The translations under genes were made by a program, and so were the position numbers. This document shows positions 1,632-40,406 of a DNA stretch of 43,299 bases, one piece after another; the first letter of the stretch is position 1, and each line of letters opens with the position of its first letter. Source of the DNA: Tannerella sp. (lineage in GTDB: Bacteria > Bacteroidota > Bacteroidia > Bacteroidales > Tannerellaceae); contig JAISCL010000103.1 in the NCBI GenBank assembly GCA_031265585.1, positions 1 to 43,299 on the forward strand. The letters run 5' to 3'. Under the pieces are notes generated by a model, which saw only the letters and a program-made list of their open reading frames with translations, was not told where the DNA came from and did no database searches.

Positions 1632-1708
1632 AGTATGGAATGAGTATATCCGGAGTATATGTGAAGTATATCCGGAGTAGATATGAAGTAGGGGATGAGT
1701 CTATGTTA
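1632..1708. repeat. Tandem repeat array, 22-bp period, about 3 units
   Basis: AGTATATCCGGAGTA occurs exactly at 1643-1657 and again at 1665-1679, giving a 22-bp period. More diverged units follow at 1687 (AGTAGGGGATGAGT) and precede at about 1632 (AGTATGGAATG). Each good unit is centred on the palindrome TCCGGA with A/T flanks that are themselves nearly symmetrical. It lies between the terminator and a decayed coding fragment. Its geometry resembles the arrays at 6968, 32363 and 40323. Confidence 0.6.
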
Positions 1709-1869
1709 TCTACGTGTTTGGCGGACGGTATGTCGCCGACAATCTCAACGGGCCGTGGTCTTACGGCAAATCGTATAATGCTCGAAAATATCCCGTACGA
1801 CATCCGGATCGGCAAATTACCGGGCGGGATTCGCGGTGTTTGGGCGGTTCAGGGTTCTCTTTTTATTGA
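1699..1869 (+). pseudogene. Decayed fragment of a secreted or glycan-related protein
   Basis: This frame reads YVFGGRYVADNLNGPW and then SYGKSYNARKYPVRHP before TGA at 1867-1869. The GGRYVAD...NGPW pattern looks like beta-propeller or GH43-type sequence, but that similarity is weak and I would not assign a family. There is no start; a stop at 1696-1698 lies just upstream. Its last bases overlap the 3' end of the kinase gene on the other strand. It is probably a leftover of a gene lost between the rhamnosidase and the two-component system. Confidence 0.3.
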
Positions 1870-3288
1870 AAAAACAAATTCGAGGCCTCCTCCGGGACGC
1901 TGTTTGGCTCTGATGGTTCCACCATGACGGAGGATCGCGTTTTTTACGACGGAAAGTCCCAGGCCGGTGCCTCCGGCTTTACGCGAACGGCCTTTATCAA
2001 CCCGGTAAAAACGTTCGAAAAGCCGGTCCAGGTGCTCTTCGGTGACACCTGCCCCGTTATCGCTGTATGAGAAATAATAATAATCGGGATCTTCCGTATT
2101 GCACTCGATATAAATGTTTGTCCCTTCTCCGGCATAGGCGAGCGTATTGTCTACCAGGTTGCGGAAAACGGAGTAGAGTAACGTCTGACTCCCGATACAG
2201 ACAAGGGACATCCCCTCAGTCCGGTTATAAGCCGTGATGTTCTTTTCAGACAGCGACAATGAGACGTCATACAGCAGGACGGTGATCAGTTCTGCCAGGT
2301 CTACCCGCTCCTTTGCAATCATTCCGGGCGCTTCGTCCATCCGGTTAAGTATGGATATGTCATGTAACAGAGCGGAAAGACGGGTGCTCTGCTTATAACA
2401 TTTTTCGATGAAACTGATCAGGACATCCTCCGGAAGTTCCTTTACATTTAGAATCGTTTCGAGATACCCCTGTATGCTGCTTACGGGTGTTTTCAATTCA
2501 TGCGCCAGGTTCTGGGTTACCTGCCGCTTGATACGCGCCTGTTCCTCCTTTTCTTCCAGCACCCTCTCCTGCTCCACGACGAGTGCGCGTTTTGCTTCCT
2601 GGAAGCGGTTATAAATCTTTATGATATGCCGCGCAATGTCCCCGACCTCGTCATTCGAGAAATAATCCGGATATTTGTCTATATTTTCATGTTCCGCCTT
2701 GTCGGTAAAATCGTTCAGGCGGTTGATATTCTGTCCGAGGTGTTTCATCCTGTTATAAAAGATAGCCACAAAGACGATCATGACCGCAATGGAAACAAGA
2801 AAGTAAACGGAATCGATTTTCAGGGCCTCGTCCAGGTCATGGTTGTAGGGAACGGCGGAACGGATGAAAAAGCGGTCATATTTTTTTGCCGAGAAAAAGA
2901 ACTCTTCTCCCGTGAAAGCGGAGGTTCTGATGTCATACCCGACTCCATTCTTCACCGCATCCCTGATTTCCCTGCGGGAGGAAAAGTCCCAGTCTTCATC
3001 CGTCTCCGGAAGCAGCGAATCATAGATCAGCCTGCCCGAAAGGTCGATAATCGAAACACGGGACAGGTCATTTAACACCGCTTCTTCCACCGGAATGCCC
3101 CGCTGCATCTGCAAATAAATATAGTCATTATATCCTGTGATCTTCGTATTCAGCAGATCCTTTTTATACTTTTTCTCCCGGGTATACTGGAATGCCAGAA
3201 AACAGCAGCAGATCAGGAAAAATGCAATCAGCACCGACCAGAAAAGGCGCAGATGAAATTTGACGTATTTTTTTGAAGAAACTTTCAT
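1849..3288 (-). CDS. Membrane sensor histidine kinase
   Basis: This 479-residue two-component sensor kinase sits in the inner membrane. Transmembrane segment 1 is at about residues 12-33, an extracytoplasmic sensor domain spans about 35-160, and transmembrane segment 2 is at about 161-178 (VYFLVSIAVMIVFVAIFY). A HAMP-like linker and coiled coil run to about 255. The HisKA dimerisation domain follows, with the phospho-accepting His at about 263 in LAHELKTPVSS. The C-terminal ATPase domain has an N box (RNLVDNTLAYA), DNGAGV and the G box GTGLGLSVVKNAI. It lies 12 nt downstream of its response regulator in the same operon. The stimulus cannot be read from the sequence. The next gene on the opposite side is a phosphate-transporter fragment, so a PhoR-like role is possible. 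RprX-type kinases of Bacteroides have the same architecture. Confidence 0.93.
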   Translation of the reverse strand: MKVSSKKYVKFHLRLFWSVLIAFFLICCCFLAFQYTREKKYKKDLLNTKITGYNDYIYLQMQRGIPVEEAVLNDLSRVSIIDLSGRLIYDSLLPETDEDWDFSSRREIRDAVKNGVGYDIRTSAFTGEEFFFSAKKYDRFFIRSAVPYNHDLDEALKIDSVYFLVSIAVMIVFVAIFYNRMKHLGQNINRLNDFTDKAEHENIDKYPDYFSNDEVGDIARHIIKIYNRFQEAKRALVVEQERVLEEKEEQARIKRQVTQNLAHELKTPVSSIQGYLETILNVKELPEDVLISFIEKCYKQSTRLSALLHDISILNRMDEAPGMIAKERVDLAELITVLLYDVSLSLSEKNITAYNRTEGMSLVCIGSQTLLYSVFRNLVDNTLAYAGEGTNIYIECNTEDPDYYYFSYSDNGAGVTEEHLDRLFERFYRVDKGRSRKAGGTGLGLSVVKNAILRHGGTIRAKQRPGGGLEFVFSIKREP

Positions 3289-3300
3289 AAAAGCAGAAGA

Positions 3301-3990
3301 CTAAACCTCGAAGCAATAACCGTAACCGAGCCGTGTCACAACATTTTTGTCATACGGTATGATTTTTTTCCGCAGGCGTGTGATGTGAACATCTACGGTG
3401 CGGTCCGTGACGAGCACATTATCCGGCCATACGGTCTTAAGCAGTTCATCCCGTGAGAATACCCGTCCGGGCTTTTGCAGCAGCAGGAATAAGATTTCAA
3501 ACTCTTTTTTTGTGAGAGACAGGTCTTCGCCGTCAACGGAAGCCCTTTTGGTAACCGTATCGAGCACCAGTTTATCAAAAAAGAGTGACGTATCCGGCAT
3601 TTCATCCGCACCGGCACGGATACACCGCCTCATCACCGCTTCTACGCGTGCAATTACTTCCTTTACGGAAAAGGGCTTTAAGATGTAATCGTCCGCTCCC
3701 AGGTTAAGCCCGTGAACGGTATCTTCCTCAGAATCCTTTGCCGTACAGAAAATGATGGGAATAGAGGATGTGTTCCTGTTCTTTTTTACAATATCCGCTA
3801 ACTGAAACCCGGAAATATCCCGCATCATGACATCAAAAATCAACAGTTGATAGACAGAGAGATCCATGCTCAAAGCTTCTTCTGCAGAAAGCGCCGTATC
3901 AACTTCATACCCGGCATTTTCAAGGTTAAACTTTAAGATCTCACAAAGGCTGTCTTCGTCGTCTACTACTAAAACATGTTTTTTTTCCAT
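3301..3990 (-). CDS. OmpR/PhoB-family response regulator
   Basis: This is a 229-residue DNA-binding response regulator and the partner of the kinase encoded directly after it. The receiver domain (about 1-120) has the acidic pair DDE at 10-12, the phospho-acceptor Asp53 in IFDVMM, a Thr near 83 in FCTAKD and Lys105 in ILKPF. The C-terminal winged helix (about 130-229) has the OmpR-family signatures LTKKEFEIL, VFSRDELLKTVW and RTVDVHITRLRKKI. The start is supported by a strong Shine-Dalgarno (AGGAGG, complement of 3998-4003) seven bases upstream, which is unusual here. A TATATTTG box (4014-4021, minus strand) may be its -7 element. Its targets are not known. Confidence 0.95.
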   Translation of the reverse strand: MEKKHVLVVDDEDSLCEILKFNLENAGYEVDTALSAEEALSMDLSVYQLLIFDVMMRDISGFQLADIVKKNRNTSSIPIIFCTAKDSEEDTVHGLNLGADDYILKPFSVKEVIARVEAVMRRCIRAGADEMPDTSLFFDKLVLDTVTKRASVDGEDLSLTKKEFEILFLLLQKPGRVFSRDELLKTVWPDNVLVTDRTVDVHITRLRKKIIPYDKNVVTRLGYGYCFEV

Positions 3991-3997
3991 TTTGTTA

Positions 3998-4003
3998 CCT
4001 CCT
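3998..4003 (-). promoter_or_regulatory. Strong Shine-Dalgarno of the response regulator gene
   Basis: On the minus strand AGGAGG lies about seven bases before the ATG at 3990. Most starts in this window lack any such motif, as is usual in Bacteroidetes, so this one stands out and fixes the start. Confidence 0.65.
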
Positions 4004-4013
4004 GTTTATGACG

Positions 4014-4021
4014 CAAATATA
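4014..4021 (-). promoter_or_regulatory. Bacteroidetes-type -7 box upstream of the two-component operon
   Basis: TATATTTG on the minus strand matches TAnnTTTG and lies 24 bp before the start codon. No clear TTTG is found at the expected -33 spacing, so the call rests on the -7 box alone. Confidence 0.45.
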
Positions 4022-4155
4022 ATTTAAATATACCGGTTTTTAGCCGCTTAACACAAATGTAATAATTATGTCATGCGCATGTAACAAAAATAAACAAATT
4101 TTGTAAAATCAAAGTGATGTTCTAAAGTTTAATTATAACGCCTTTTCATATTATT

Positions 4156-6824: not shown

Positions 6825-6847
6825 ACAATTAAATGATTTTCGGAGGA

Positions 6848-6878
6848 CAAAAGTAGTGCAAATCGGATACAATACAAA
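6848..6878 (-). promoter_or_regulatory. Promoter of typA (TTTG-N19-TACTTTTG)
   Basis: On the minus strand TTTG (6875-6878) is followed after 19 bp by TACTTTTG (6848-6855). This is the Bacteroidetes sigma-ABfr consensus with ideal spacing. The predicted start is about 6842, giving a leader under 20 nt and excluding the upstream-extended reading frame. Confidence 0.75.
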
Positions 6879-6900
6879 ATAAGCCGGCTTATTTTTACAG

Positions 6901-6930
6901 TTATACTGCGCGCGGGATGGTTTTATGCAT
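6901..6930 (+). repeat. Dispersed ~30-bp intergenic repeat, copy A
   Basis: The core runs TTATACTGCGCGCGGGAT followed by GGTTTTATGCAT. Close copies occur at 23801-23830 and 40201-40230 (both inverted), and a more diverged one at 40280-40309. The palindrome array at 6968 starts about 38 bp downstream in the same orientation as at 40280. The typA-to-GH172 gap (6825-7215) is otherwise filled by the two promoters and this composite. Confidence 0.65.
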
Positions 6931-6967
6931 GGATTCATGCCTGTGAAATGAAGTGATTCTTTATTTT

Positions 6968-7076
6968 GTAACGAGGCTCGTTACTTACCATTAACGAGGC
7001 TCGTTACTTACCTGTAACGAGGCTCGTTACTTACCGTTAACGAGGCTCGTTACTTAGCTGTAACGAGGCTCGTTAC
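6968..7076. repeat. Array of five 23-bp tandem units, each a palindrome
   Basis: The 15-bp core TAACGAGGCTCGTTA starts at 6969, 6992, 7015, 7038 and 7061, an exact 23-bp period with no change in the core. Copies 1, 3 and 5 extend to GTAACGAGGCTCGTTAC. The 8-bp spacers are CTTACCAT, CTTACCTG, CTTACCGT and CTTAGCTG. A 23-bp period is not a multiple of three, so the array is not coding. It lies in the divergent gap between typA and the fructan operon, about 110 bp upstream of the operon's -7 box. It could be a multi-site operator, a recombination hot spot or a structured RNA. Confidence 0.9.
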
Positions 7077-7182
7077 AAAAACAGTCCGTTTGTTGGATGA
7101 ATTATGCCGCACAAAATAGAGGTATATGACATTTGTGATAGTTTTTGTCTTATTTGTTATCGACGGAAGGGATGCCTTTGCC

Positions 7183-7190: not shown

Positions 7191-7215
7191 CGGTTCAATT
7201 AAAATGAACAGGATC

Positions 7216-14334: not shown

Positions 14335-15210
14335 ATGATGAAGAAGCATTTCGTTTTATTCGCAGCCATCTTATGCTTTTGTGGCAGTTCCTGTAAGAAA
14401 GAAAAATTGGCAATTGCCGGCAGCGGCTGGCAGGAGGTAGCGATTGTTGATAAAACATCCGGCGCTATCGAATGGAAGCACCCGCTTGAAGAGGGCGACG
14501 AATGTAATGACATTGAAGTGACTCCCGACGGTCATATCTTATTTGCCTACTCAAAAGGCGCCAAACTGATAAACCGTAACCATGAACTGATCTGGGATTA
14601 TAAAGCAGGGGAAAAGGAAGAAATCCATACAGCGACACGCCTGAAAGACGGAGGTTATATGCTTGCGGTATGCGGTGAACCCGCACGAATCGTCGAGCTT
14701 GACAAAGACGGTAAAGAAACCCGGGAAATACCATTTCATACCGTAATATTTGATATACACAATCAATTTCGTCAGGTAGCAAAAACAGATGACGGATTAT
14801 ACCTTGTGCCGCTTATTGAAAAACGGAAAATTTTACAGATCTCACCCGAAGGCCGTAACAGGGGCAGTATATATATAGGATATGATGTCTTCTCCGTGAA
14901 ACCGCTGGAAAATAAAGACATGCTCGTTTCATGCGGCAGAGACGGCAGATTTATAAGAATAAATCCGGCAAGGCAACAGTCAGACAGCACGGTTGTCACA
15001 AACAGTATCAAAGGCGCATCCCTTCTCTATGTAGGGGAACTGTTTTTATATGAAAACGGAAATAAGCTAATTGCCAATTCAAACATGTACAGCGACGATA
15101 AATCCCAGCCGTTATTGATAGAAATAGACGAAAATAACGAAGTTATATGGAGTCTTCCGTTCAATAAAGAAATAAAAAACATCACGGCTGTCTATTCATT
15201 CCGGCAATAA
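14335..15210 (+). CDS. PQQ-like beta-propeller lipoprotein
   Basis: This 291-residue exported protein starts MMKKHFVLFAAILCFCGSSC. The signal peptide ends in a Cys-containing region, although the lipobox is weak (GSSC). The remainder is made of repeating beta-propeller blades with motifs such as EVAIVDKTSGAIEWKHPL, NHELIWDYKAG, RIVELDKDGKE and PLLIEIDENNEVIWSLPF, typical of PQQ-like/arylsulfotransferase-like propellers. No catalytic residues can be named. It may be a binding or scaffold protein. It stands alone between two promoters. ATG 14338 is an equally possible start. Confidence 0.75.
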   Translation: MMKKHFVLFAAILCFCGSSCKKEKLAIAGSGWQEVAIVDKTSGAIEWKHPLEEGDECNDIEVTPDGHILFAYSKGAKLINRNHELIWDYKAGEKEEIHTATRLKDGGYMLAVCGEPARIVELDKDGKETREIPFHTVIFDIHNQFRQVAKTDDGLYLVPLIEKRKILQISPEGRNRGSIYIGYDVFSVKPLENKDMLVSCGRDGRFIRINPARQQSDSTVVTNSIKGASLLYVGELFLYENGNKLIANSNMYSDDKSQPLLIEIDENNEVIWSLPFNKEIKNITAVYSFRQ

Positions 15211-15211
15211 T

Positions 15212-15233
15212 AAAAGAAAATACGTTTTCTTTT
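15212..15233 (+). terminator. Weak A/T hairpin terminator
   Basis: AAAAGAAAA pairs with TTTTCTTTT across the loop TACG just after the lipoprotein stop, and more T residues follow. The stem is almost all A/T, so strength is doubtful. Its 3' end overlaps the -33 element of the next promoter. Confidence 0.4.
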
Positions 15234-15263
15234 TGTTATTACGTCTGATTTCCACTATATTTG
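15232..15263 (+). promoter_or_regulatory. Promoter of the cardiolipin synthase gene
   Basis: TTTG (15232-15235) and TATATTTG (15256-15263) are spaced by 20 bp, a close match to the Bacteroidetes consensus. The start codon is 27 bp beyond the -7 box. Confidence 0.65.
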
Positions 15264-15290
15264 CCTGAAGTATAAAATTAGAAACCCGGC

Positions 15291-16727
15291 ATGTTTGCAA
15301 GTTTAGGCATTTCAACACTTATAGGCGCTATAATCGTCATACTGTACTGTATTACGATTATAGGATTGGTACTTCTTGTTTTACTGGAAAACCGTAACCC
15401 GTTAAAAACGATCCCATGGGTGATCGTACTTGTTTTCGTACCGGGCATCGGACTGGTATTCTATTATTTTTTCGGACAGGAACATCGCCGTCTGCGAATC
15501 ATTACCCGGCGGATATACAAACGTTTTCTGAAGCAGACAAAAGTATATGAACAGCCTAAAAACATAAAAGAAATACCTCCAAACTACGCCCCTCTTGCAC
15601 ACCTTTTAAATAACAGCAGTTATTCCGCCATTTTTAAGGGAAGTGAAATTTCCGTTTACACAAACGGCAGGGATAAACTCAATGCATTACTGAAGGATAT
15701 TAAAAACGCCCGTAATCACATTCACCTCCAGTACTATATATTCAGGGACGACAAAACCGGAAACAAAATCCGGAAAGCGCTCATTGAAAAGGCTCACGAA
15801 GGGCTAAAGATCCGTATCCTGTATGATGATGTCGGGTGCTGGAAGACGAAGAACCGTTTTTTTGAACAAATGAAAAAGGAAGGAATAGAGGTATACCCGT
15901 TTCTGAAAGTTGTGTTCCCGATATTGACAAGCAAGGTTAATTACCGCAATCACCGGAAAATTGTAGTCATTGACGGTGAAGTGGGATACATGGGGGGCAT
16001 GAATATTGCCGACCGTTATGTGGAAGGCGATAAATTAGGGCCCTGGCGGGATACTCATTTCAGGATTACAGGCCCTGGGGTTCACGGACTGCAGGCGTCA
16101 TTTTTATTAGACTGGTATGCCATAAGCAGCACCCTGATAAAAGGCAGGGAATATTATCCCGAGGTAAAAATAATGTCCGACATGAAAATGCAGATTGTCA
16201 TGAATGGCCCGGCAAGTCAATGGCGCACCCTCATGCAGGCTTTCATTTTTTGCATATCCAATGCAAAAAAACGCATTTACATTCAAACGCCGTATTTCCT
16301 CCCGACAGAAGCGCTCAATCAGGCGCTTCAGATGGCCGCCCTGGGAGGCATTGATGTTCGCCTGATGATACCGAAATGCTCTGATACGAAATCCGCACAA
16401 ATGGCCTCCTTCTCGTATGTAGACAAAATGCTCAAATCGGGAGCCAAAGTCTACTTATATGCCAAAGGATTTCTTCACTCTAAATTATTACTGGTAGATG
16501 ATATGCTGACCTGTATCGGATCTTCTAATTTTGATTTTCGCAGCTTCGAGCATAATTTCGAAATAAACGCCTTCGTCTATCAGGAAAACTTTGCTGTAAA
16601 AATAAAAGATATATTTATGCAGGATTTACGTGACTGTGAGGAGATTTTATATCCGGAATGGCGCAAGCGTCCCATAACCGGGCGTCTTGCGGAATCATTC
16701 ATGCGACTGTTTGCGCCGTTATTATAA
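15291..16727 (+). CDS. cls: Cardiolipin synthase (phospholipase D type)
   Basis: This 478-residue inner-membrane enzyme joins two phosphatidylglycerol molecules, or related lipids, into cardiolipin. Two N-terminal membrane segments (about 5-30 and 40-60) are followed by a cytoplasmic region with two phospholipase D HKD motifs. The first is NHRKIVVIDGEVGYMGG (His at about 221) and the second is HSKLLLVDDMLTCIGSSNFD (His at about 396). The downstream FEINAFVY matches ClsA-type enzymes, and the length is normal for them. It has its own promoter. The last 29 bp overlap the convergent rsmD gene. Confidence 0.95.
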   Translation: MFASLGISTLIGAIIVILYCITIIGLVLLVLLENRNPLKTIPWVIVLVFVPGIGLVFYYFFGQEHRRLRIITRRIYKRFLKQTKVYEQPKNIKEIPPNYAPLAHLLNNSSYSAIFKGSEISVYTNGRDKLNALLKDIKNARNHIHLQYYIFRDDKTGNKIRKALIEKAHEGLKIRILYDDVGCWKTKNRFFEQMKKEGIEVYPFLKVVFPILTSKVNYRNHRKIVVIDGEVGYMGGMNIADRYVEGDKLGPWRDTHFRITGPGVHGLQASFLLDWYAISSTLIKGREYYPEVKIMSDMKMQIVMNGPASQWRTLMQAFIFCISNAKKRIYIQTPYFLPTEALNQALQMAALGGIDVRLMIPKCSDTKSAQMASFSYVDKMLKSGAKVYLYAKGFLHSKLLLVDDMLTCIGSSNFDFRSFEHNFEINAFVYQENFAVKIKDIFMQDLRDCEEILYPEWRKRPITGRLAESFMRLFAPLL

Positions 16728-17253
16728 AAATACTGAAATTCACCGCTCCGTAAACACGACGCCGGCTAAAAAAGGGAAGGCCTGAGAAATCATGATCCCG
16801 TGAATGTTCCATAACAAAAATACCGTCTTCACGCAGAATCTTTTTTTCAATAATAATACGCGGTATATCACGCAACGAATCCAGGGAATAGGGAGGATCG
16901 GCAAATATAAAATCGAAAGATTTTTCTTTGGCCGTGTCCAGAAAACGAAACGCATCGCCACAGATCAGGGAGAGCGCATCTGTTTTCAGTTCCCGGCCTA
17001 CTTTCCGGATAAAATCGGCGTGCGCGCGGTTTTGCTCCACCGCAGTAACCGAACGGCATCCCCTCGAAAGCATTTCAAACGAGATACTGCCCGTACCGGC
17101 AAACAGATCAAGCGCATCCATCCCCTCCCAGTCGATCAGGTTGGACAATACATTAAACAGATTCTCTTTCGCAAAATCCGTTGTAGGACGGGCTTTAAAC
17201 GATGAAGGCACGCTGAATCTGCGATGACCGTATATGCCGCTTATAATCCGCAT
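16699..17253 (-). CDS. rsmD: 16S rRNA (guanine966-N2)-methyltransferase RsmD
   Basis: This 184-residue cytoplasmic enzyme methylates G966 of 16S rRNA using SAM. The N-terminus MRIISGIYGHRRF is the family form. A Rossmann SAM motif is at 48-60 (LDLFAGTGSISFE), AVEQN at about 71-75 and the catalytic DPPY at 119-122. Its start overlaps the end of the DUF3822 gene by 13 bp, so it is the third gene of a minus-strand operon (18716 to 16699). Its 3' end overlaps the convergent cls gene by 29 bp. Confidence 0.95.
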   Translation of the reverse strand: MRIISGIYGHRRFSVPSSFKARPTTDFAKENLFNVLSNLIDWEGMDALDLFAGTGSISFEMLSRGCRSVTAVEQNRAHADFIRKVGRELKTDALSLICGDAFRFLDTAKEKSFDFIFADPPYSLDSLRDIPRIIIEKKILREDGIFVMEHSRDHDFSGLPFFSRRRVYGAVNFSIFIITAQTVA

Positions 17254-18071
17254 TCAACCCATGTTACGATATCCATAAACAGATCCTGGTCAACGGCAAC
17301 CTGATATTTCCTGATTTTAGGAGTCACGAAATCAACCTGTTCCATATAATTTTTGATGACGGGCAGTACATTCCGGCAGATCGCCTTATCGCCATAGAAA
17401 AAAACAGGATCTTCAAGCTGGTTCACCGATAGCTGTTTACAGACATACATGATAAAATAAATGATATCATTCCCGGTTTCATAGCCGAAAGAATTCAGAA
17501 ACAACAGTTCTCCCTGTTCAAAGCAAACGATATGCAGCATCGTATCCTGTATGACAATATAAATCTGTTTAGGGTAACAGCCCAAACTCTTTTTACGCCA
17601 GTCAACCAGCATCGGAGACAAAAAATGAATGAAATGGGGGTTAATAAGCGAGCGCACCATAAATTCATACGTTTCATTGTCCATACAGAACAACAGGGAT
17701 GAATAAAAATCGGTTAATGGCTGTGCCAGCACCTTTGAATCTTTATCTACCGGGAAACAATAAGAAAACAGCTGATTCTTATCTTTTTCGGAAAAAACAC
17801 TGTCGGGAACCAGGGTATATTTATCCGAAACAGAAATCACCTGCAAAGCATTGTAGGCATAAGATAAACAGGCATTCTCAAAAAAGATATCCTTCAGCGA
17901 CTGAACTAACGAAACCTCCGGATCCAGGGAAACGGTCTCCGAGAAAAAGCTATCTTTCTCCGATGGAATATAGCCGGAAAAAGAAAGTCCATCCGGCCAT
18001 AGCCGGATGGATACATTATATTTTTCCGAATTAGTTACATTCAGCAGCGTGTCAGGAACACGGATTATCAT
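17241..18071 (-). CDS. DUF3822 family protein
   Basis: This 276-residue protein of unknown function is conserved in Bacteroidetes and commonly found beside rsmD. It has no signal peptide or membrane segment. The alternating beta-strand and helix pattern (YKQ-like PKQIYIVIQDTMLHIVCFEQGELLFLNSFGY) suggests an ASKHA/PilM-like fold, but no ATP-binding residues can be named with confidence. It is 9 nt downstream of a membrane-anchored protein gene and overlaps rsmD by 13 bp, which points to coupled translation. Confidence 0.8.
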   Translation of the reverse strand: MIIRVPDTLLNVTNSEKYNVSIRLWPDGLSFSGYIPSEKDSFFSETVSLDPEVSLVQSLKDIFFENACLSYAYNALQVISVSDKYTLVPDSVFSEKDKNQLFSYCFPVDKDSKVLAQPLTDFYSSLLFCMDNETYEFMVRSLINPHFIHFLSPMLVDWRKKSLGCYPKQIYIVIQDTMLHIVCFEQGELLFLNSFGYETGNDIIYFIMYVCKQLSVNQLEDPVFFYGDKAICRNVLPVIKNYMEQVDFVTPKIRKYQVAVDQDLFMDIVTWVECGL

Positions 18072-23800: not shown

Positions 23801-23830
23801 ATGCACAAAACTGTCCCGCGCGCAGTATAA
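23801..23830 (-). repeat. Dispersed ~30-bp intergenic repeat, copy B
   Basis: Read on the minus strand it is TTATACTGCGCGCGGGAC followed by AGTTTTGTGCAT, with TCCCC just beyond. It differs from copy A at 6901 at only three or four positions. It lies 28 bp after the HAD stop. No palindrome array adjoins it. Confidence 0.6.
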
Positions 23831-24003: not shown

Positions 24004-27000
24004 CTATTTAATAACGATCTTGTGTACCGATCCGTCTTTCAGCGTCACGATGTACATGCCGCGTTCCAGCGTGAACTTGTTCGTACCCGCAGGAATTTCC
24101 ACCTTTTGGTACAGCACGCCCGTCAGGTTGTAAATACTTACGATATCGTCCATTGCAACATTGATATACAGCGTATTCTTGTATGTCCAGATGCGCTGGC
24201 CCGGGAGACCCTCATTTGAAACGTCGGACCGGGGATCCGGACCGATATAAACCGTCCAGGGTTCTACCACCTGGTAGATTGTATACTGGTAACTGCCGTC
24301 GTCCAGGAGCCTGCTGGTATGGTCAAGGTCAACGATATTGCCCGAGTAAAAACCTTTGGCGCTTATCTTCAGCGGGCTGCCGGAATACCTGGCGGTGAAC
24401 GTAAAGTTCTGGTGGCCGAAGACATGGCTGCGACCGAAGCCCGGTACGGTCGTCACACCCGGCACTTCAAGGATATCAATCCAGCGCTGTACTTCCGGGA
24501 TCGGGTACGACGTTACGCATAAGTATACTTTCCCGCGTTCGCCGAAGTAAAGGCTAAAATAGTAATCCCCGTAACGGATTTCCTTCAGTACAAAGTTCTT
24601 CACATATTCCTGGCTTACCCCTGTGGAGTCGCCGTAGACCATGAACAGGTAACAGCCCGGATCCAGCGTTTCCGTTTCCGGCAGTATGACGACCGGCACC
24701 CTGCCGTCCGTGAAGTACACCGTATCCTGTACGACGATCGTATCGGTCTGGGTACAGTAGATGGGGCCGTCGGGACTGTCTATGCAGTTCCGGTTGCTGA
24801 TTGAGAGACGGAGGACGGCGTCCTTTTCCATCTGAAGGTTGTGTACCGTCAACTTGCCCTGTGTGTTCGGGGTCTGGCAGTCGCCTTCCATCAGGGAGGC
24901 AAAACCCGGAGCCAGGATCCCGTTCGCTTTCACCATTACATTCTCATGAATATTTCCATAACCGCCTACGACGGTTGTCGGGATCACGGTCAGGGAATCT
25001 TCGCCCGGGAGGCTCAGTTCACTGCCGCGTTCAAGGTGGAGGTGACGCGTGTACATACCCGGATCTACCATCTTGTCATCCATCTGGACGGGTGTCGCCA
25101 TAACGAACTTACCCTTGCGGTCGTTCGGGGCAGTCGGATCCGTATAAAATTCCACTTTGTTCCGGATCCGGAGGAGGTCGGTGCGGATAAAGGCATCGAC
25201 AAATTCACCTCCCGACATATTATCCAGCGAGTCGGTGATAAACGAAATCCGCGCATGGTTTGCTACTACCGTATTGAACATCGGCATCGCGTAACCGTAC
25301 TTGAACGCTACGATCACATCGCCACCGACTGTCGGCGTCTGTTCCTTACCGGCCAGCGAACGTATATTCGGAGCGCTGTGAGGCGCCGAGTTCGGCTCGT
25401 TGCAACGCTGGTAACCCAGTTCCAGTACGGGAAGACTGCGGTCTTCCATTTCGATCGCGGGACCGTAGAAGCTGTAGTTCGCACGGTTGCGGCCTTTGTC
25501 GTTGATCACGCCGTAACGCATGTCATTGGCGCGTTGCGTTGCATCCGTCGTAAACGGCTTCAATTCAACGCTATGACCGGCAAAGATCACGCTGTCGTGG
25601 AAGATCAGGCTGTCCGCCTTCAATGTTATATTGGTCTTAGTCCCCTTGTTTGTTTCTGCATCTATCTCGGCATGACCGAAGAACTCAATCACAGGAGCTT
25701 CCAGCAGGGATTTCTGACGGTGCGTGTGGATACGCGCGTCGTCATGGAATCCGATGTACGTCATTTCAGGGATTGCCCGACTGCTCTCGCCCTCCATCGG
25801 GAACGAACTGAACTCGCCGCAGCCTTCACACGTGGCGCGACGTTTTTCCGGGTAGTTATAGCCTGTCCCGTTAAACTGGGATTTCATATAGAGACCGTAA
25901 CCGGCTACGGATTCGCCATGAAGTGATCCCATTCCGGGAACAGCGCCCATTGCACTGCCTTCACCACCATAATAGGTAAACCCGGTAAATATATCTATAT
26001 AATTGGAAGCAACCGAAGCGAAACCGCCCGACTGGACTTTGTTTCCGTTAATATCTTCATAGAAGTTCAATTCGATGTCACGCGCGCCGTTGGAAGTTGT
26101 CACACAGTCGCCTGTATATCCCGAGCAATCAGCACTACCTTGTTTGCAACCACGGTATAACAGATGGGATTTACGTTTCGGGTCGTAAAAAGAGTTCCTG
26201 TAGAACATATAGCCATCCACATTCACATCAAAGGTTGCAGTCGCCAGACCATCAATATATCCTTCATAAGAGGTATAATAATACGGATTCGCATCGCGGT
26301 ACATGTTTATACTGTCACGCAACGGAGACGCATACGATGTTTGAAGTTTGGTTACATCGTAATTACCCGGATATCCCATACCGGTCTGACCATAATTGTT
26401 ATACTCTAAATTGCTGTTCCCGTAGTTCAGCATGATATTGTCATCCGCGCCGAAGAAGACGCTTCCGCTTTCTTTCACCGGAGTATACTGGAAATCACGT
26501 TCACTTACGTCTCCCCAGTTATTCCGCAAACCTTGTGTACGGTTGTCCATCGCTGCATATTTAAGCAGGTCGCCCCCCATACTGTCTACGGTAAACGCGT
26601 CATACGTATCAATGAAACCCTCACGCGTACGGAAAACGGCATTTCCGGTTCCGACCGTATTGGTCGTCGGATTGCCGAAGTTCAGGTTCGCACCTTTCAT
26701 CATGATATTTCCGGTACGCCACAATGACGTGTCGCCACAATTGTCAGGCACATTTGTATTCAGCAGGTATTCGCTTGCACCAAGGCATGTTACGTTTCCC
26801 CAGCGGATAGCCATTGAATCATCTACAGAACCGAGGCCTGCGTCTACCAGGAAGTTTCCGTTAATACCATGATACAGGATTGAATCTTTACCCCAGATAT
26901 TTCCGTTCGGCGTACGGATTTCCGTATAACCGCCTGCGGTTCCGGCGCCAGTCGGCATATAAAATTCCATATAGTCGAACGTAATGTTTCCGCCGAATGC

Positions 27001-30000
27001 TTTTCCTTTACCTTTGTCTATCCCATAAATATCATCAAAGAACAGCTTGGGATTCTTCTTTCCGGTTATCCGGTTTTCTTCAAAGCCTTCGAAACCGGCC
27101 AGGATATGGATATTTCCGCCTAAAACCGTACTGTTGGTTGCACCGCTGTTATAGTCGAAGATGATACTGTCGTGCACATTGGTAGCGCCAAAGTCCGCTC
27201 CGTAACCCAGTACAATATGTCCCTGGTGAATGCCGGGGCCGCCCTCGGCACAATTATAAGGCACGTCACAGTCAGCGCCTGCCTTATATTTGGCAGTTGT
27301 GATAAACACGCTTCCCGTATCGGTACTGTTTACATATTTAATTTTACGGGTCAGGATCGAATCATAAGCATTGATAGACAACTGACCGTTCTTCAACTGA
27401 GCGGTTTTTTGCATAGCCTCATAATATAATTTGTCATGCAGTTTGATATCAATGGCTTTCATCTGGGTAAGACCCGTACCGTAATGGTTGAACAGGATCG
27501 GAGCATTATGCTCGTCATTCAATTCATCATATCCCACATTCAATTTATGCAGATACGGATCATTCTCAATATTTCCATTATATGCAAACAGTGAAATCGT
27601 GCTATCCCCATAATAATTAAATACTAATGTATCGAACAGCAGGATACTGCCGTTACCGCGACCATCTTGAGAAAAAGCGCTGCCTGTTCCGTCTGTTCCG
27701 GGACGATAAGCGATACCTGCAGGAGCTAAATAACTACCTTCTTCAATCGTTTTACACAATGCATCCGTACAGGCCCAATTACTAAGACCCAATCCGCCCG
27801 GATGATCCATCTTACCGGCCCATAATGTAATACTGCCATCTGTTGCTGTATGATCATAATCGAACTTCATGGTCGCATGTGTTTCGATGTGACGGCCGGC
27901 CACAAGTAATGTAGCGGTGTCGGAAAGCGTATTACCTGAAACATTTGCGTGTGTGAATGTCGCCGGAGCATCAATTTGTGTTTCGATATCACGATGTGCC
28001 TGCAGGATCGTAAAGCCCGAACCATTATTAGTTACATTCAAGGGTTTATTGAACAGGATATTTCCATGATTCTGGTCAAACAAGTCATTACAATTGGGAA
28101 CACACAAATAAGGGCCTGCCTGGATACGGATATCGCCGTTATTATTCGAAGCAGCATTTACTGTGATATTAACCGTATCTTTCACACTGGAATCCTCATC
28201 TTCAACAGCCTCCACATTTCCTGTTTCGGCATACATCAAAAGATTTCCTGCTGTCATCGGATGAACATGATGATCTATCCTGTGATTTTCAGCTTGAATT
28301 GTTGAATTTGTAAGATAATCAAATTTATTATTCACATATATAGTTCTATAAGCATTGATAACCGTAGCTACCGTATCTGATGCAGCAGAATTATTTGAAT
28401 AATCAATAAGGACATTCCCATTAAAGATAATGTTTCCACTATCACTGCCACAAAGTACATTTCCGGCGTATTCTGTAAGATTTCCTGCTGTTTGCGCATA
28501 TACGGTATCGGTAAATCCTTTACCATAACAGGGATCCCAATTAGCCTTATATCCGGCCTTCATCGTAAACTCTCCATTATTCGGAGTTTTGTGGTTTACT
28601 TTCAACGAATCCCAAATTACAATATCCCGGTGGGCTTCCATGATAATCTGGCGGTCTCCCCAATGATCTATTGTAAATGTAGAATTTGAATTAGATACAG
28701 TTCCAGTCCCTTGATCTGCATATATATCACGTCCGGCCTGTATCATCAACAATCCACTTTCATCCATATTATCTGTATTTGTATAATAAACAGTATCTTT
28801 AAAGTTTACATTATCATTTACAGACTGAATCTGAGTCAGACCGGGTGAAGAAGCAGCATAAGTAATTTTCGTTGCTCCATCGAAAGAAATATTTCCATAA
28901 GTATTTGCAGGAGCAGAGCCACTTAGTGTTCCACCCTGATTTGTTGTTCCTTCAGCCAAAACAACTAACGGGCCATTCTTACCGTCATAAATAAAAGCGC
29001 CACCCTGTGTGACCCATCCGGCAGGAGACCATATTTTCGCATAATCAGGTGTAGCGTTTGATACCATATCAATAGTATCATCTCCTATATTATAAACATA
29101 CTTATCACCAAATACAAGATAATGCCCTTCGGCGCCTTGTGTATGTTTATTATATCCATGAAAAGTCGTACCGCCTGTTTCTGCCGCAATATTGGAACTT
29201 CCTGTAGCATTCGCATCGTGTGTCGTAATAACCGGACCATAAAGGTCTACATTTGTACGTCCACTGATCAACAGATTTCCGGAAGCGTATCCGTTATATA
29301 CCTGCGCTTCATTTCCTGTTCCATTACCAAGTTTCACATAACTCCTGAATGATTGGATAACGGCATCACCTTTCCCCTGATAACCGGAGAAATCAATTTT
29401 AGTGCTATCCCATACATTCACAGAATCTTTTGCCTGTACTAATAAACCGGCATCTTTACCCGTAAAATAAAGATGTTTTCTAAGACTGACCGCATTACTG
29501 TCAGCACGTATTACTGTCTGGAACGTATCCAGAACAGTACCTGTTCCGCCATAATTACCGATGGACAAATAATCAGCACAATCATCACCCTGTAATGTTT
29601 TAACTACAGCAGCGCTTCCTGTTGTTCCCTGATTGGGAATATTATATGTACCCCAGGTATAATAAGGATAGGTATTAATATTGGAACCGGTTATTGTTGC
29701 AACAGTAGTCAAATATGAATTTTGAGAACCCTGCTGATCTATAATTACAGGACCAACAACTGTAATATCTCCATCACAGGAATATGTATTATCATGATCA
29801 GCATGTGTATTCATTGCAAACAATCCGTACGTTGATTTATATGCAACCGAATCATCCGCCGTGATATAACTGTTATCAGAATATAGATATACACTGTTAC
29901 TGTCCGTGTTTGCTTTCAGACTCATCGGTTCTGCGAGATAGATTCTACCACCATTAGCATTTACAAGAACAGACCCTTTTCCTGTCGCATTAGCTAATGC

Positions 30001-31749
30001 ATCAACAAGAACACCGGCGCCGCCGGTAGCATTAAAATTAATCTCAGCATCACAACATAGCCCATCATTAATTATAGATAATTGCTGAGTATCATCATTA
30101 ATCCACAATTTAGGAAATACTTGCGCGGTACTGATATTCATAGCTTCACAATCCCACCAGCATCCTGACGAATTTCTCAAATAACCACCTGAAAAAATAT
30201 TAAACAAAAGTTGTCCATTTTGAGCTGCAGTCGGACCAATATTTGATGTGCCGGCATGATTAGCTACACCGGCAACCGTACCGGGTCCTACTTCTATCAT
30301 ACCATTATCGTCTGTCGTCCCGTTATTTTCTGTATATACCAATGCATTTTTAGGATCATATGTTCCCCTGACACCCAACACCGACCCATCATACAAATAT
30401 GCGATATCTTCGGATTGCGAATTTGTTACGGCATCCGAAGTAGAATAATCCTGACGGGTCACTGTTGCATTCTGATATATATTGATTGGATTAATATTAC
30501 CCTGCACTCTTAATGCAAACGGGCCATTACCTAATGAAGGTAAATCAAGACCTGCATCTGTTCCGGCATTACCACCATCTACAGATCCCCAACTTTGTAG
30601 CTTTTCAGTTATATCCGAAACATCCGTAAGCACGCATACATTTGCATTTTGCAATAACTGCACGATACCGTCCACATAACCTCCGGCTGCATGCTCTGAT
30701 GTCCAGTATACATCTGTAACCTGATGCCAGGTTCTTGTGCCAATAGCAGTTCCCGTTTCATTCGGACTTGACGATATAGTTGGACATGCACCATGTTCAT
30801 GATGATAATCAGCTCTACCAGTTGAAAATGCAGCATTTCCTGCTTGCCATCTTCTATAAAACCATTGATTATTATCAAATGTAATACTATCTAAGGTCCA
30901 TATAGTATTATGATCTATGCTTACACTTTTAACAGCTACTGTTGTAGGACGCACATACCATTCTAAATTTCCATTACCATTTGTATTCCCGTCATATATT
31001 AAAGCTTGACCTGCGTTAGTATATGTAGAAAGATTATTAATAGCAGTCCCTGTTTTTTGAATCAATGATACACCATCATCATAACCTCCACTCTGATTCC
31101 TTGTATAGGGTACTGTCATAACATATTGAGGTGAATTTATTTCTAAACCAGAATTATTTGTTGCAGGTTCACCATGAGGCCACTTTCCTGAAGTCTCAGC
31201 TACTGAGCCGGTAAATCCTGTACCTGATATAGAACCAAGAGTACCTGCGTCATTCCCCGGAAAATCATGGCACGTATATGGCCCACCAGTCCAAGAAAAC
31301 CCTCCTCCTGGCTGCCAACCTATAGAAGAGCTACCATCTGCTTGAATCCAAGTCCAAGAATAATCATAAGTCCAGGTTCTATACCATCCCCGAATCTGTC
31401 CATCGGCATTATAGGAGTTTATAACATAGTTTTTATTTGATAAAGAATTATTGTTACCACCGATTGTTAATTTCTCAGTCGGAGTAGCCTCATATCCCTG
31501 ACCTAACAATGGACTATATGGAGGAGATGTTGCACCATTATCAACAGTTCCAGTCGTTACAGTTGCATTTTCTCCGGCTCCAAAATAGTTATTGATACCA
31601 TCCTGTTTTCCGAAAACACTTTGAGTCCTGGGCTGAGAAACAGGAGTATTACCTTCGGCCCCAATATACTTAGCCTGCCCCCAAGCCGTTCCAATGCTGA
31701 GCATCAGGAGTGCTGAGCAGGTGATTAAAAGTGTAAATCTTTTTTTCAT
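24004..31749 (-). CDS. Giant T9SS-secreted surface protein (2581 aa)
   Basis: The signal peptide is MKKRFTLLITCSALLMLSIGTAWGQ; the frame is open 16 codons further upstream, but this ATG is the clear start. The long body is Asn/Gly/Thr/Asp-rich with repeated short beta-strand patterns such as GNILFN, GNISFDG, ILQAHRDIET, IMEAHRDIVI and IQAGRDIYAD. It looks like a right-handed beta-helix or adhesin stalk with units of roughly 100 residues. The last 80 or so residues form a type A T9SS sorting domain (LYINVAMDDIVSIYNLTGVL, GTNKFTLERGMYIVTL, HKIVIK end), so it is exported through T9SS and attached to the cell surface. The 5' half of the gene (about 27000-31700) is visibly more A/T-rich than the 3' half. 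It is monocistronic. Its role in adhesion is inferred. Confidence 0.88.
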   Translation of the reverse strand: MKKRFTLLITCSALLMLSIGTAWGQAKYIGAEGNTPVSQPRTQSVFGKQDGINNYFGAGENATVTTGTVDNGATSPPYSPLLGQGYEATPTEKLTIGGNNNSLSNKNYVINSYNADGQIRGWYRTWTYDYSWTWIQADGSSSIGWQPGGGFSWTGGPYTCHDFPGNDAGTLGSISGTGFTGSVAETSGKWPHGEPATNNSGLEINSPQYVMTVPYTRNQSGGYDDGVSLIQKTGTAINNLSTYTNAGQALIYDGNTNGNGNLEWYVRPTTVAVKSVSIDHNTIWTLDSITFDNNQWFYRRWQAGNAAFSTGRADYHHEHGACPTISSSPNETGTAIGTRTWHQVTDVYWTSEHAAGGYVDGIVQLLQNANVCVLTDVSDITEKLQSWGSVDGGNAGTDAGLDLPSLGNGPFALRVQGNINPINIYQNATVTRQDYSTSDAVTNSQSEDIAYLYDGSVLGVRGTYDPKNALVYTENNGTTDDNGMIEVGPGTVAGVANHAGTSNIGPTAAQNGQLLFNIFSGGYLRNSSGCWWDCEAMNISTAQVFPKLWINDDTQQLSIINDGLCCDAEINFNATGGAGVLVDALANATGKGSVLVNANGGRIYLAEPMSLKANTDSNSVYLYSDNSYITADDSVAYKSTYGLFAMNTHADHDNTYSCDGDITVVGPVIIDQQGSQNSYLTTVATITGSNINTYPYYTWGTYNIPNQGTTGSAAVVKTLQGDDCADYLSIGNYGGTGTVLDTFQTVIRADSNAVSLRKHLYFTGKDAGLLVQAKDSVNVWDSTKIDFSGYQGKGDAVIQSFRSYVKLGNGTGNEAQVYNGYASGNLLISGRTNVDLYGPVITTHDANATGSSNIAAETGGTTFHGYNKHTQGAEGHYLVFGDKYVYNIGDDTIDMVSNATPDYAKIWSPAGWVTQGGAFIYDGKNGPLVVLAEGTTNQGGTLSGSAPANTYGNISFDGATKITYAASSPGLTQIQSVNDNVNFKDTVYYTNTDNMDESGLLMIQAGRDIYADQGTGTVSNSNSTFTIDHWGDRQIIMEAHRDIVIWDSLKVNHKTPNNGEFTMKAGYKANWDPCYGKGFTDTVYAQTAGNLTEYAGNVLCGSDSGNIIFNGNVLIDYSNNSAASDTVATVINAYRTIYVNNKFDYLTNSTIQAENHRIDHHVHPMTAGNLLMYAETGNVEAVEDEDSSVKDTVNITVNAASNNNGDIRIQAGPYLCVPNCNDLFDQNHGNILFNKPLNVTNNGSGFTILQAHRDIETQIDAPATFTHANVSGNTLSDTATLLVAGRHIETHATMKFDYDHTATDGSITLWAGKMDHPGGLGLSNWACTDALCKTIEEGSYLAPAGIAYRPGTDGTGSAFSQDGRGNGSILLFDTLVFNYYGDSTISLFAYNGNIENDPYLHKLNVGYDELNDEHNAPILFNHYGTGLTQMKAIDIKLHDKLYYEAMQKTAQLKNGQLSINAYDSILTRKIKYVNSTDTGSVFITTAKYKAGADCDVPYNCAEGGPGIHQGHIVLGYGADFGATNVHDSIIFDYNSGATNSTVLGGNIHILAGFEGFEENRITGKKNPKLFFDDIYGIDKGKGKAFGGNITFDYMEFYMPTGAGTAGGYTEIRTPNGNIWGKDSILYHGINGNFLVDAGLGSVDDSMAIRWGNVTCLGASEYLLNTNVPDNCGDTSLWRTGNIMMKGANLNFGNPTTNTVGTGNAVFRTREGFIDTYDAFTVDSMGGDLLKYAAMDNRTQGLRNNWGDVSERDFQYTPVKESGSVFFGADDNIMLNYGNSNLEYNNYGQTGMGYPGNYDVTKLQTSYASPLRDSINMYRDANPYYYTSYEGYIDGLATATFDVNVDGYMFYRNSFYDPKRKSHLLYRGCKQGSADCSGYTGDCVTTSNGARDIELNFYEDINGNKVQSGGFASVASNYIDIFTGFTYYGGEGSAMGAVPGMGSLHGESVAGYGLYMKSQFNGTGYNYPEKRRATCEGCGEFSSFPMEGESSRAIPEMTYIGFHDDARIHTHRQKSLLEAPVIEFFGHAEIDAETNKGTKTNITLKADSLIFHDSVIFAGHSVELKPFTTDATQRANDMRYGVINDKGRNRANYSFYGPAIEMEDRSLPVLELGYQRCNEPNSAPHSAPNIRSLAGKEQTPTVGGDVIVAFKYGYAMPMFNTVVANHARISFITDSLDNMSGGEFVDAFIRTDLLRIRNKVEFYTDPTAPNDRKGKFVMATPVQMDDKMVDPGMYTRHLHLERGSELSLPGEDSLTVIPTTVVGGYGNIHENVMVKANGILAPGFASLMEGDCQTPNTQGKLTVHNLQMEKDAVLRLSISNRNCIDSPDGPIYCTQTDTIVVQDTVYFTDGRVPVVILPETETLDPGCYLFMVYGDSTGVSQEYVKNFVLKEIRYGDYYFSLYFGERGKVYLCVTSYPIPEVQRWIDILEVPGVTTVPGFGRSHVFGHQNFTFTARYSGSPLKISAKGFYSGNIVDLDHTSRLLDDGSYQYTIYQVVEPWTVYIGPDPRSDVSNEGLPGQRIWTYKNTLYINVAMDDIVSIYNLTGVLYQKVEIPAGTNKFTLERGMYIVTLKDGSVHKIVIK

Positions 31750-31960
31750 AAATTCTGATTTTTGAGTTATATTTGGTTTATATTTATTTGTTTGCATGTT
31801 TTTTCGTATTAGTTAAGCGAAATTAAAGCTATCATAAAGAAGGTAGATAAAGACATAAAAAAACCCGGATACTATCGTACAAATACCCGTTCCCTTATCA
31901 TCACCCGCATGAATAGTTGTATAACCCACTTTGTTTTACGTAAAATAACTAATTCGACGG

Positions 31961-32185: not shown

Positions 32186-32226
32186 CCCCCCCCCCCCCGT
32201 AGAGACGCGATGCATCGCGTCTCTAC
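32186..32226. repeat. 13-C run next to a perfect 28-bp palindrome
   Basis: Thirteen consecutive C residues (32186-32198) abut a perfect inverted repeat (32199-32226). The left arm is GTAGAGACGCGATG and the right arm its exact reverse complement. This arm sequence resembles a short dispersed palindrome I recall from other bacterial genomes. It lies in the 937-bp gap 31798-32734, which also holds a decayed Ig-like coding remnant, a tandem palindrome array and the promoter of the uxu operon. Confidence 0.85.
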
Positions 32227-32622
32227 ACATTCAGATATGGGGCGGGTATCGTCACCGTCATTGCACGTGTGGCTGTCTTATTTCCGTCTTCTGTTGTTAC
32301 TGTTATTGTAGCCGTACCTGCGGCATTGGCTGTAACCAGCCCGGACGTTGACGACCACAAAAGAGAGAGGTTCTCCCGTCCTTCCTTGAGAGGCGTTCTC
32401 GCCCTTCCTTGAGAGAGTCTCTTGCCCTTCTTTGAGAGACTCTCTCGTCCTTCCTCGAGAGACCTTTTGTCCGGGCGAACAAAGACTGTTTGTCCGCCTT
32501 ACTCTACCGTAAGGGGGTTGTCGGACAATGACGGCGTCCGTGTTGGCTACGCCGGGGATTTCGACTGTTACATTATGAGAAACATTCAAATTTATTGCAG
32601 GTTTGCCAATCCTCACATGCAA
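32223..32622 (-). pseudogene. Remnant of a surface protein with a BIG2-type Ig-like domain
   Basis: On the minus strand, 32225-32357 in one frame reads WSSTSGLVTANAAGTATITV then TTEDGNKTATRAMTV and ends at a TAG. This is the C-terminal half of a BIG2 domain. Further upstream (about 32500-32610), in another frame, it reads HNVTVEIPGVANTDAVIV. The two parts are separated by the array at 32363-32469. There is no intact start. It looks like a broken secreted protein. Confidence 0.55.
32363..32469. repeat. Array of five ~23-bp tandem units, each a palindrome
   Basis: Cores begin at 32363, 32388, 32411, 32434 and 32457: GAGAGAGGTTCTC, GAGAGGCGTTCTC, GAGAGAGTCTCTT, GAGAGACTCTCTC and GAGAGACCTTTTG. 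Periods are 25, 23, 23 and 23 bp. Spacers are C/T-rich (CCCTTCCTT-like). The geometry equals that of the array at 6968 although the sequence differs. It splits the BIG2-domain remnant. An adjacent hairpin (GGCGAACAAA with TTTGTCCGCC, about 32474-32498) follows. Confidence 0.8.
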
Positions 32623-34099: not shown

Positions 34100-34118
34100 T
34101 TCCGGACAGGCATACACA

Positions 34119-35354: not shown

Positions 35355-35382
35355 CTATAATCTCCTCATAAATTAAACGATT

Positions 35383-37080: not shown

Positions 37081-37093
37081 AACCGTACACCCG

Positions 37094-38314: not shown

Positions 38315-38349
38315 AAATGTTTGAGAAGCAACTATTAATACAAATAACT

Positions 38350-39744: not shown

Positions 39745-39943
39745 ACAGCAACGCCGGCAAATAAGAGGCCAACGCATCGAAAGGCGTCCGGTTTGGATCC
39801 TCCGTGCAAGCGGAGTGCAAAGAGGAGGTCACCAAAAGTCAGGGTGTCCTTGATAATTGAAAGGACCGTATCATGAAGCGTCCTGAATGAACCTTATTTT
39901 CAAAAGTTCCCTTCTATATTGCAATCCAAAATACAAAGTAATA

Positions 39944-40177
39944 TTATTGACTGTTTCGATCTATTTCAAAACAAAGTATTGTCTTTGCCGTCGAAGTTGA
40001 AAAGGAAACAGGTTCTGCCGGGAGGCAATCTGTCAGTAATAAACTTCCCGTGTTACGCTGTAACCTGTGTTCGGGAGAGAGATCATTAACATCACAAAGG
40101 CATTCCTTTTTATTTTCTTTACAAAGTGCAAATCTAAGGTATGGGGAATAACAGGTGAGCAGTGCACGTTTTTCCAT
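39944..40177 (-). CDS. Small hypothetical ORF
   Basis: This 77-residue frame begins MEKRALLTCYSPYLRF and contains three Cys in its first half. It has no signal, membrane helix or known motif. No ribosome-binding site is seen. It lies just downstream, on the minus strand, of repeat copy C, so it could be part of that mobile or repeated segment. Low certainty that it is a gene. Confidence 0.25.
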   Translation of the reverse strand: MEKRALLTCYSPYLRFALCKENKKECLCDVNDLSPEHRLQRNTGSLLLTDCLPAEPVSFSTSTAKTILCFEIDRNSQ

Positions 40178-40200
40178 TGACAGGGTTCTCCTGACGGGGT

Positions 40201-40309
40201 ATGTACGAAACCATCCCGCACGCAGTATAATAACAGGATCGAAAAAGCCCGCTTTTCCTTTGCCGGAATCGCGGGACTGTTATGCCGTGCCTGATATGGT
40301 TTTGTGCAT
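40201..40309. repeat. Inverted pair of dispersed ~30-bp repeats (copies C and D)
   Basis: Copy C (40201-40230, minus strand) reads TTATACTGCGTGCGGGAT then GGTTTCGTACAT. Copy D (40280-40309, plus) is more diverged: TTATGCCGTGCCTGATAT then GGTTTTGTGCAT. They face away from each other round a 49-bp centre, giving a 109-bp imperfect inverted repeat like a small MITE. No target-site duplication is evident. Confidence 0.55.
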
Positions 40310-40322
40310 TCCCCGAACAAAA

Positions 40323-40406
40323 CGGGAACTCCCCCCAGGAAAATGGGGACTTCTCCAACGAAGCGGGGACTTCCCCGAATGAGTTGGAGGTTCTCAAACA
40401 ACGCAC
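40323..40406. repeat. Tandem array of four ~21-bp units with palindromic cores
   Basis: Units carry GGGAACTCCCC, GGGGACTTCTCC, GGGGACTTCCCC and a diverged TTGGAGGTTCTCAA. The period is 20-21 bp. It begins 14 bp after repeat copy D in the same relative order as copy A and the array at 6968. Read as protein it gives 7-residue repeats (NGNSPQE, NGDFSNE, AGTSPNE), but frames on both strands are open, so coding is not proven. Confidence 0.7.

Follow-up and report, generated by a model that had tools for sequence, protein, structure and literature searches.

The genome of a gut bacterium, Tannerella sp., carries, in a stretch of 43,299 nucleotides (contig JAISCL010000103.1 of assembly GCA_031265585.1; hereafter the window), short tandem arrays between its genes, which raises the question of what produces units that share a layout while differing in sequence. 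A preliminary description had proposed four arrays of one design (A1 to A4), made up of palindromic cores and spacers, and knew of no named class that fits. We interpret arrays of this kind as intergenic minisatellites, built from short palindromes of duplex DNA that often have almost no loop and recur every ~21–23 or 41–42 bp. As an explanation we favor, with a probability of roughly 45%, that they are dyad minisatellites which grow where they stand and owe part of their spread to mobile elements. The arrays of the window, in part delimited with Tandem Repeats Finder (TRF), are the following.

1643–1690, no strand: A1, 22 bp × 2.2 (or 11 bp × 3.5), TRF score 82; membership doubtful
6967–7076, no strand: A2, 23 bp × 4.8 (TRF), between typA (minus strand) and a DUF2961 gene (plus strand)
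32365–32463, no strand: A3, 23 bp × 4.3 (TRF), with GAGAG..CTCTC dyads
32464–32505, no strand: flank of A3 with the hairpin TCCGGGCGAACAAAGACTGTTTGTCCG, similar beside array copies on contigs C170 and C180
40310–40395, no strand: A4, diverged and degenerate 20–21-bp units, clearest dyad CGGGGACTTCCCCG

Two of the four arrays, A2 and A3, are solid. Symmetry was assessed by permuting the unit columns alike in all copies, by which the repetition is kept and the symmetry alone is lost. A2 consists of five 17-bp dyads with one central base, placed at 23-bp steps; three are exact copies of GTAACGAGGCTCGTTAC, i.e., GTAACGAG-G-CTCGTTAC, and the other two carry T as first base (p = 0.005). The units of A3 measure 25, 23, 23, and 23 bp, and with the first one cut to 23 bp the dyad reached p = 0.002. 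A3 belongs to a dispersed repeat, since C170 and C180 carry the array again together with 40 bp or more of its flank and the hairpin therein. A1 is a genuine but short repeat with only two full 22-bp units, whose dyad did not exceed column permutation with a unit of either 22 bp (p = 0.41) or 11 bp (p = 0.53). A4 was not reported by TRF at score 30 or 20; its units 1–3 are 62–71% alike, compared to 50% for the 95th percentile of random pairs, and its dyad, as aligned, gave p = 0.68. The design initially ascribed to all four arrays was thus recovered with significance in A2 and A3, but not in A1 or in the degenerate A4. A plain chance origin of A1 to A3 is ruled out, since the chance expectation for the A2 20-mer is 0 occurrences and 40 Markov-resampled windows contained zero arrays with a period ≥ 15 and a score ≥ 60. 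CRISPR (clustered regularly interspaced short palindromic repeats) is ruled out because the spacers are repeated too, and coding repeats are unlikely, as 22, 23, and 41 are not multiples of three and the arrays counted lie outside called genes.

A1 is flanked by a rhamnosidase-family open reading frame (ORF) at the contig start and by a PhoR-type kinase gene, and A4 lies next to genes for an oxidoreductase and for a 3-keto-disaccharide hydrolase-like protein. In the genome of the window (4.88 Mb, fragmented into 383 contigs, of which the window is contig 184), matches to the A2 dyad were confined to the array itself, which rules out an operator used at other sites. A2 was also not seen upstream of the DUF2961 homologues of three relatives (G006, G009, and G002), which rules out conservation with the neighboring gene; in G002 this position is occupied by a different, weak 25-bp repeat (score 60). 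The typA neighborhood of some other Tannerella species contains arrays different from A2, and in G014 a diverged 41-bp array with a dyad (p = 0.035 by column permutation) adjoins typA. Among named organisms, the TypA protein of the window is most closely related to those of Tannerella sp. metagenome-assembled genomes and of T. forsythia, in keeping with an assignment to Tannerella.

The layout of the arrays is not a peculiarity of this window. TRF was applied to genome samples (score ≥ 60, period 15–100), similar arrays were collapsed into families, and arrays with < 30% overlap with gene calls, obtained by our own ORF scoring, were regarded as non-coding. This yielded 14 non-coding families in the window's genome (527 kb), 49 in the Tannerella genome G030 (400 kb), 16 in other Tannerella (454 kb), 26 in Parabacteroides (563 kb), 13 in Porphyromonas (175 kb), and four in control Bacteroidales (654 kb). 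Most of the Porphyromonas loci were retrieved via the terminal repeat of the BrickBuilt element described below, which biases their array density; the sampled stretches of G030 held 67 non-coding arrays per 400 kb. Among the 118 families from Tannerella, Parabacteroides, and Porphyromonas, unit lengths of 20–24 bp (54 families) and 40–46 bp (38 families) prevailed, followed by 80–87 bp (16 families, one of which, from Parabacteroides, is a row of tRNA-Asn genes), 61–70 bp (two families), and other lengths (eight families). Hence, 110 of the 118 families fall into four length classes that span just 30 of the 86 possible periods from 15 to 100, and the preferred lengths lie close to multiples of two helical turns. 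A common geometry with free sequence, as proposed for A1 to A4, therefore extends to all three genera. The arrays occurred in tandem, convergent, and divergent gaps roughly in the proportions of the gaps themselves (no formal test).

Comparison with shuffled sequence, which the preliminary description had suggested, confirmed an excess of palindromes. Relative to dinucleotide shuffles of the unit, the palindrome was significant at p ≤ 0.05 in 37 of the 118 families and at p ≤ 0.01 in 14, with mean z values of 1.70 for the window's genome, 1.48 for G030, 1.84 for Parabacteroides, and 1.48 for Porphyromonas. When coding-like families were counted as well, 39 of 139 had perfect arms of at least 7 bp, compared to 4.6 expected. 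In 20 of these 39, the inner gap was 0 or 1 base, which suggests two-fold symmetry of the duplex rather than a looped hairpin. Stem columns were also less variable than the other columns of the unit (0.065 versus 0.091); of the 49 arrays that have three or more units and a clear stem, 36 had the lower variation in the stem (sign test p = 0.001), and the ratio of 0.71 compares to 0.87–1.11 for random column sets. Mismatches within dyads were balanced (66 G.T versus 57 A.C) and therefore give no hint of RNA pairing. A dyad test with a fixed window of nine pairs was weak, with p ≤ 0.05 for 13 of 93 arrays in G030, 3 of 26 in G000, 1 of 17 in other Tannerella, and 0 of 9 in the outgroup. With a cruder coding filter the outcome was intermediate: the non-coding families at p ≤ 0.05 numbered 18 of 44 in G030, 2 of 19 in G000, 3 of 12 in other Tannerella, 1 of 5 in named Tannerella metagenome-assembled genomes, 7 of 18 in named non-Tannerella genomes, and 0 of 5 in outgroups, and the coding-like families 3 of 5 in G000, 4 of 19 in G030, and 0 of 11 in the rest.

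In 25 of 63 families with 41–42-bp units, the second-best dyad was located at half the period, 20–21 bp from the first, compared to 7.5 expected. In one family of G030, blocks with the dyads GGCGAC..GTCGCC and GGCAGA..TCTGCC alternate while the linker remains unchanged; in the four arrays of this family all 59 search-matched dyads are symmetric, and one place in locus L095 was unmatched.

The statement that no named class fits has to be revised with respect to two elements of Porphyromonas gingivalis. According to passages of PMC4596501, BrickBuilt is a miniature inverted-repeat transposable element (MITE) that contains tandem repeats of 23 nt, the repeats of MITE464/PgRS are 41 nt long, and repeats of 41, 23, and 22 nt were noted in strain W83. 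BrickBuilt resembles A2 and A3 in its 23-nt tandem units, its intergenic location, and the lack of unique spacers, and the same passages describe several loci and MITE-type terminal repeats on some copies. Genome G075, which is probably P. gingivalis because it has 65 copies of the BrickBuilt/ISPg1-type end (contig of 2,354,886 bp), contains 23-bp arrays with TCTCATATGAGA, or a close variant, in the unit; as this is a dyad, as A2 has its own, BrickBuilt shares the design. It differs in that its unit, AGACCATAGTATCCTCTCATATG, is unlike those of A1 to A4 by eye and in that it is a single sequence family, whereas most arrays described here differ among themselves; its terminal repeat, GAGACCTTTGCA / TGCAAAGGTCTC, had 0 exact matches in the 527 kb sampled from the window's genome. 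MITE464/PgRS, which was compared by length and description, has 41-nt tandem direct repeats within a MITE (PMC4596501, as far as described there), a length shared by many G030 arrays. Its terminal repeat GAGACTGTTGCA had 0 exact matches in the Tannerella samples, and 41-bp arrays occur in G030 and others. The arrays thus look like a lineage-wide kind of repeat that was previously named only from a few examples in one oral species. The passages matched by term in three Tannerella genome papers (PMC3925233, PMC7014623, PMC5989130) do not mention arrays of this kind, and no statement on a common geometry was found in the portions of the literature searched.

A possible vehicle for dispersal is a 30-bp sequence, ATGYAYRAAACCNNNCCGCNCGCNGTATAA, which adjoins A2 and A4. 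In the window, it and its possible remnants are located as follows.

6901–6930, minus strand: 30-bp element TTATACTGCGCGCGGGATGGTTTTATGCAT, resembling a terminal repeat, inner end toward A2
7109–7116, plus strand: GCACAAAA right of A2, possible remnant of a second terminal repeat (weak, by eye)
23801–23830, plus strand: copy of the 30-bp element with 1 mismatch, between two ORFs, no array within 300 bp
40201–40230, plus strand: copy matching the pattern with 0 mismatches, oriented away from A4
40280–40309, minus strand: diverged copy with 5 mismatches, inner end abutting A4
40403–40410, plus strand: GCACAAAA right of A4, possible remnant of a second terminal repeat (weak, by eye)

The 30-bp element behaves like a MITE end. 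The window's genome contains 53 copies with ≤ 3 mismatches, compared to 0 for the reversed control pattern, and at ≤ 2 mismatches it is present in 17 of 41 Tannerella genomes, that of the window included. Among the matches listed, 36 of the 38 pairs situated ≤ 600 bp apart on one contig are oriented inward (hand count), and inverted terminal repeats thus occur at both ends as in MITEs; A2 and A4 themselves have one good terminal repeat each. Eight elements inspected range from 52 bp, with two fused ends, to 309 bp; the interior of several of them is palindromic. The element was used to fetch 30 loci, some of which overlap and one of which is that of A2. At L337 (1317–1530), a 42-bp array is enclosed between two ends of the element, and at L346, L352, and L357 arrays are found on the inward side of an end.

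In the sample of the window's genome, 4 of 16 arrays, and additionally A4, have an inner end of the element facing them at a distance of up to 120 bp. For comparison, 129 of 4000 random spots in array-free intergenic gaps faced an inner end, corresponding to ~0.5 expected for 16 arrays; in a cruder control with random places anywhere, the number was 47 of 3000. At individual loci the link is therefore real, but as a general rule it is not supported. With respect to the array-making process invoked in the preliminary description, this means that a MITE-like repeat does stand beside A2 and A4 and one such element encloses an array, but that the association per gap, given below, is not significant. 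When array flanks were compared with one another, no shared flank was detected in the Parabacteroides sample apart from neighboring arrays and one weak 47-bp match within a contig, and in G030 most of the 40 pairs listed, of 141, were arrays neighboring each other. In the latter genome, a 42-bp array (L101, 6473–6811) is framed at a distance of ~20 bp by the 17-bp inverted repeat CAGGGCAACCGCATCAA, and G030 may possess a second MITE-like family that carries arrays.

The analysis shows unit-length locking, an excess of dyads, spacers that vary more than the dyads, and the dispersal of array families to several loci. Under the explanation we favor, small elements with palindromic interiors would insert between genes, the inner palindrome with its spacer would be amplified in place via slippage or unequal exchange, and later decay of the terminal repeats would leave the array behind. 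A symmetric (dimeric) DNA-binding factor or a recombination complex acting on duplex DNA might retain the two-fold symmetry and the two-turn spacing. A number of results weigh against this scheme. A1 and A4 failed the dyad test, dyads were not in excess in the group of other Tannerella (mean z 0.27, p = 0.37), and in the control group 1 of 4 families reached p ≤ 0.01, which is too small a set for a contrast. In the 41–42-bp units, the strength of the second-best dyad corresponded to chance (2 of 63 at p ≤ 0.05, mean p 0.56), and compensatory changes within arrays, 12 versus 10.4 by permutation, were not in excess. The inner end of the 30-bp element faces away from 1 of the 16 arrays, at L338 the array lies outside its element, and among gaps of at least 120 bp the element is present in 2 of 15 with and 8 of 99 without an array (Fisher p = 0.39). 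The eight elements inspected had no target-site duplication clear by eye, and no parent transposase was found; among the matches listed, from fragmented assemblies, no inward pair was 0.8–3 kb apart. In G030, ends of the P. gingivalis MITE239 type flank 2 of 90 arrays and known mobile ends therefore do not explain the majority of arrays there, which rules out P. gingivalis-type terminal repeats as a general carrier; any inverted repeat of at least 11 bp flanks 10 of 90, a count without a chance rate. Because the fairer intergenic controls weaken the link between element and arrays, our confidence in the explanation we favor is lowered, and that in a purely mutational origin raised.

Such a purely mutational origin, in which hairpins of chance palindromes promote slippage, template switching perfects the palindromes, nothing reads them, and mobile elements are incidental, is possible although rather unlikely in our view. 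It would account for array contexts that resemble those of all gaps (no formal test), for the confinement of the A2 dyad to A2 and the absence of A2 upstream of the three DUF2961 homologues, for the differing arrays next to typA in relatives, and for the lack of enrichment of the 30-bp element per gap. However, templating by hairpins should leave loops of a few nucleotides, whereas gaps of 0–1 nt are the commonest, and it does not predict locking of the units near 21–23 and 41–42 bp. Loop-free dyads of 15–18 bp with two-turn spacing and conserved stems would instead be expected of operator arrays at which dimeric DNA-binding proteins, be they regulators or a protein of the nucleoid, occupy a single helical face. 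We consider this improbable, as the cores differ between arrays and that of A2 is restricted to A2, so that one sequence-specific protein cannot read all of them, and as divergent gaps, which would contain promoters, are not visibly preferred. The related suggestion of a factor that reads DNA shape was not supported by our analysis.

That the arrays are transcribed and their hairpins serve as RNA elements or as terminators is very improbable. A terminator-like hairpin flanks A3, and in single-strand folding with DNA parameters A2 (z = −10.4), A1 (−3.3), and A4 (−2.5) folded better than shuffles, which, however, also destroy the repetition; A3 did not (z = −1.3). There was no Rfam match at gathering score, the balance of G.T and A.C mismatches shows no sign of wobble tolerance, and divergent gaps hold arrays as well. 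Hardly credible is a mobilization of palindromes of the repetitive extragenic palindromic (REP) or bacterial interspersed mosaic element (BIME) type by a REP-associated tyrosine (RAYT, Y1) transposase. Passages of PMC3733652 describe REP/BIME sequences as small intergenic palindromes that are sometimes tandem, and some of the short intergenic palindromes found here are likewise dispersed. REPs form large families of one palindrome type (PMC3733652, same passages), whereas the cores described here are mostly unrelated and no Y1 transposase is needed. One Y1_Tnp match each was obtained in G000 (partial), G030, G027, and G034, but none in G014, G023, G009, and G033 (completeness 81–99%), the first three of which carry arrays in the sampled stretches.

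An idea more far-reaching than the explanation we favor is that Tannerellaceae and Porphyromonadaceae share an undescribed machinery acting on duplex DNA, i.e., a symmetric nucleoprotein complex with a ruler of two helical turns that would duplicate or maintain any intergenic palindrome and so generate genome-wide, sequence-free dyad arrays; we regard it as unlikely. New are the lineage-wide locking of unit length combined with free palindromic sequence, and the MITE-like terminal repeat present in 17 of 41 Tannerella genomes, which adjoins some arrays. The 23- and the 41-nt repeats, so far curiosities of a single oral pathogen, thereby become members of a class that spans the lineage and follows a rule open to measurement: the sequence is free, the symmetry two-fold, and the unit a multiple of about two helical turns. 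This rule points to a physical ruler and makes it testable what sets the unit length of bacterial minisatellites.

Some further features were noticed. The perfect palindrome GTAGAGACGCGATGCATCGCGTCTCTAC at 32199–32226 of the window adjoins a homopolymeric stretch of C. Several Tannerella genomes and some of other Bacteroidales contain scattered, nearly identical copies, but a 24-bp pattern derived from it was absent from ten genomes searched. The region upstream of typA at 6847–6898 (GGACAAAAGTAGTGCAAAT...ACAATACAAAATAAG) has short relatives at other loci of this and other Tannerella genomes and looks like a Bacteroidales −33/−7 promoter. On the minus strand, positions 24004–31797 of the window comprise an ORF of 2597 amino acids with no Pfam match at E 0.001. 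In G039, an outgroup of the order, positions 14676–17366 of locus L123 contain repeats of 72–78 bp that resemble a CRISPR array.

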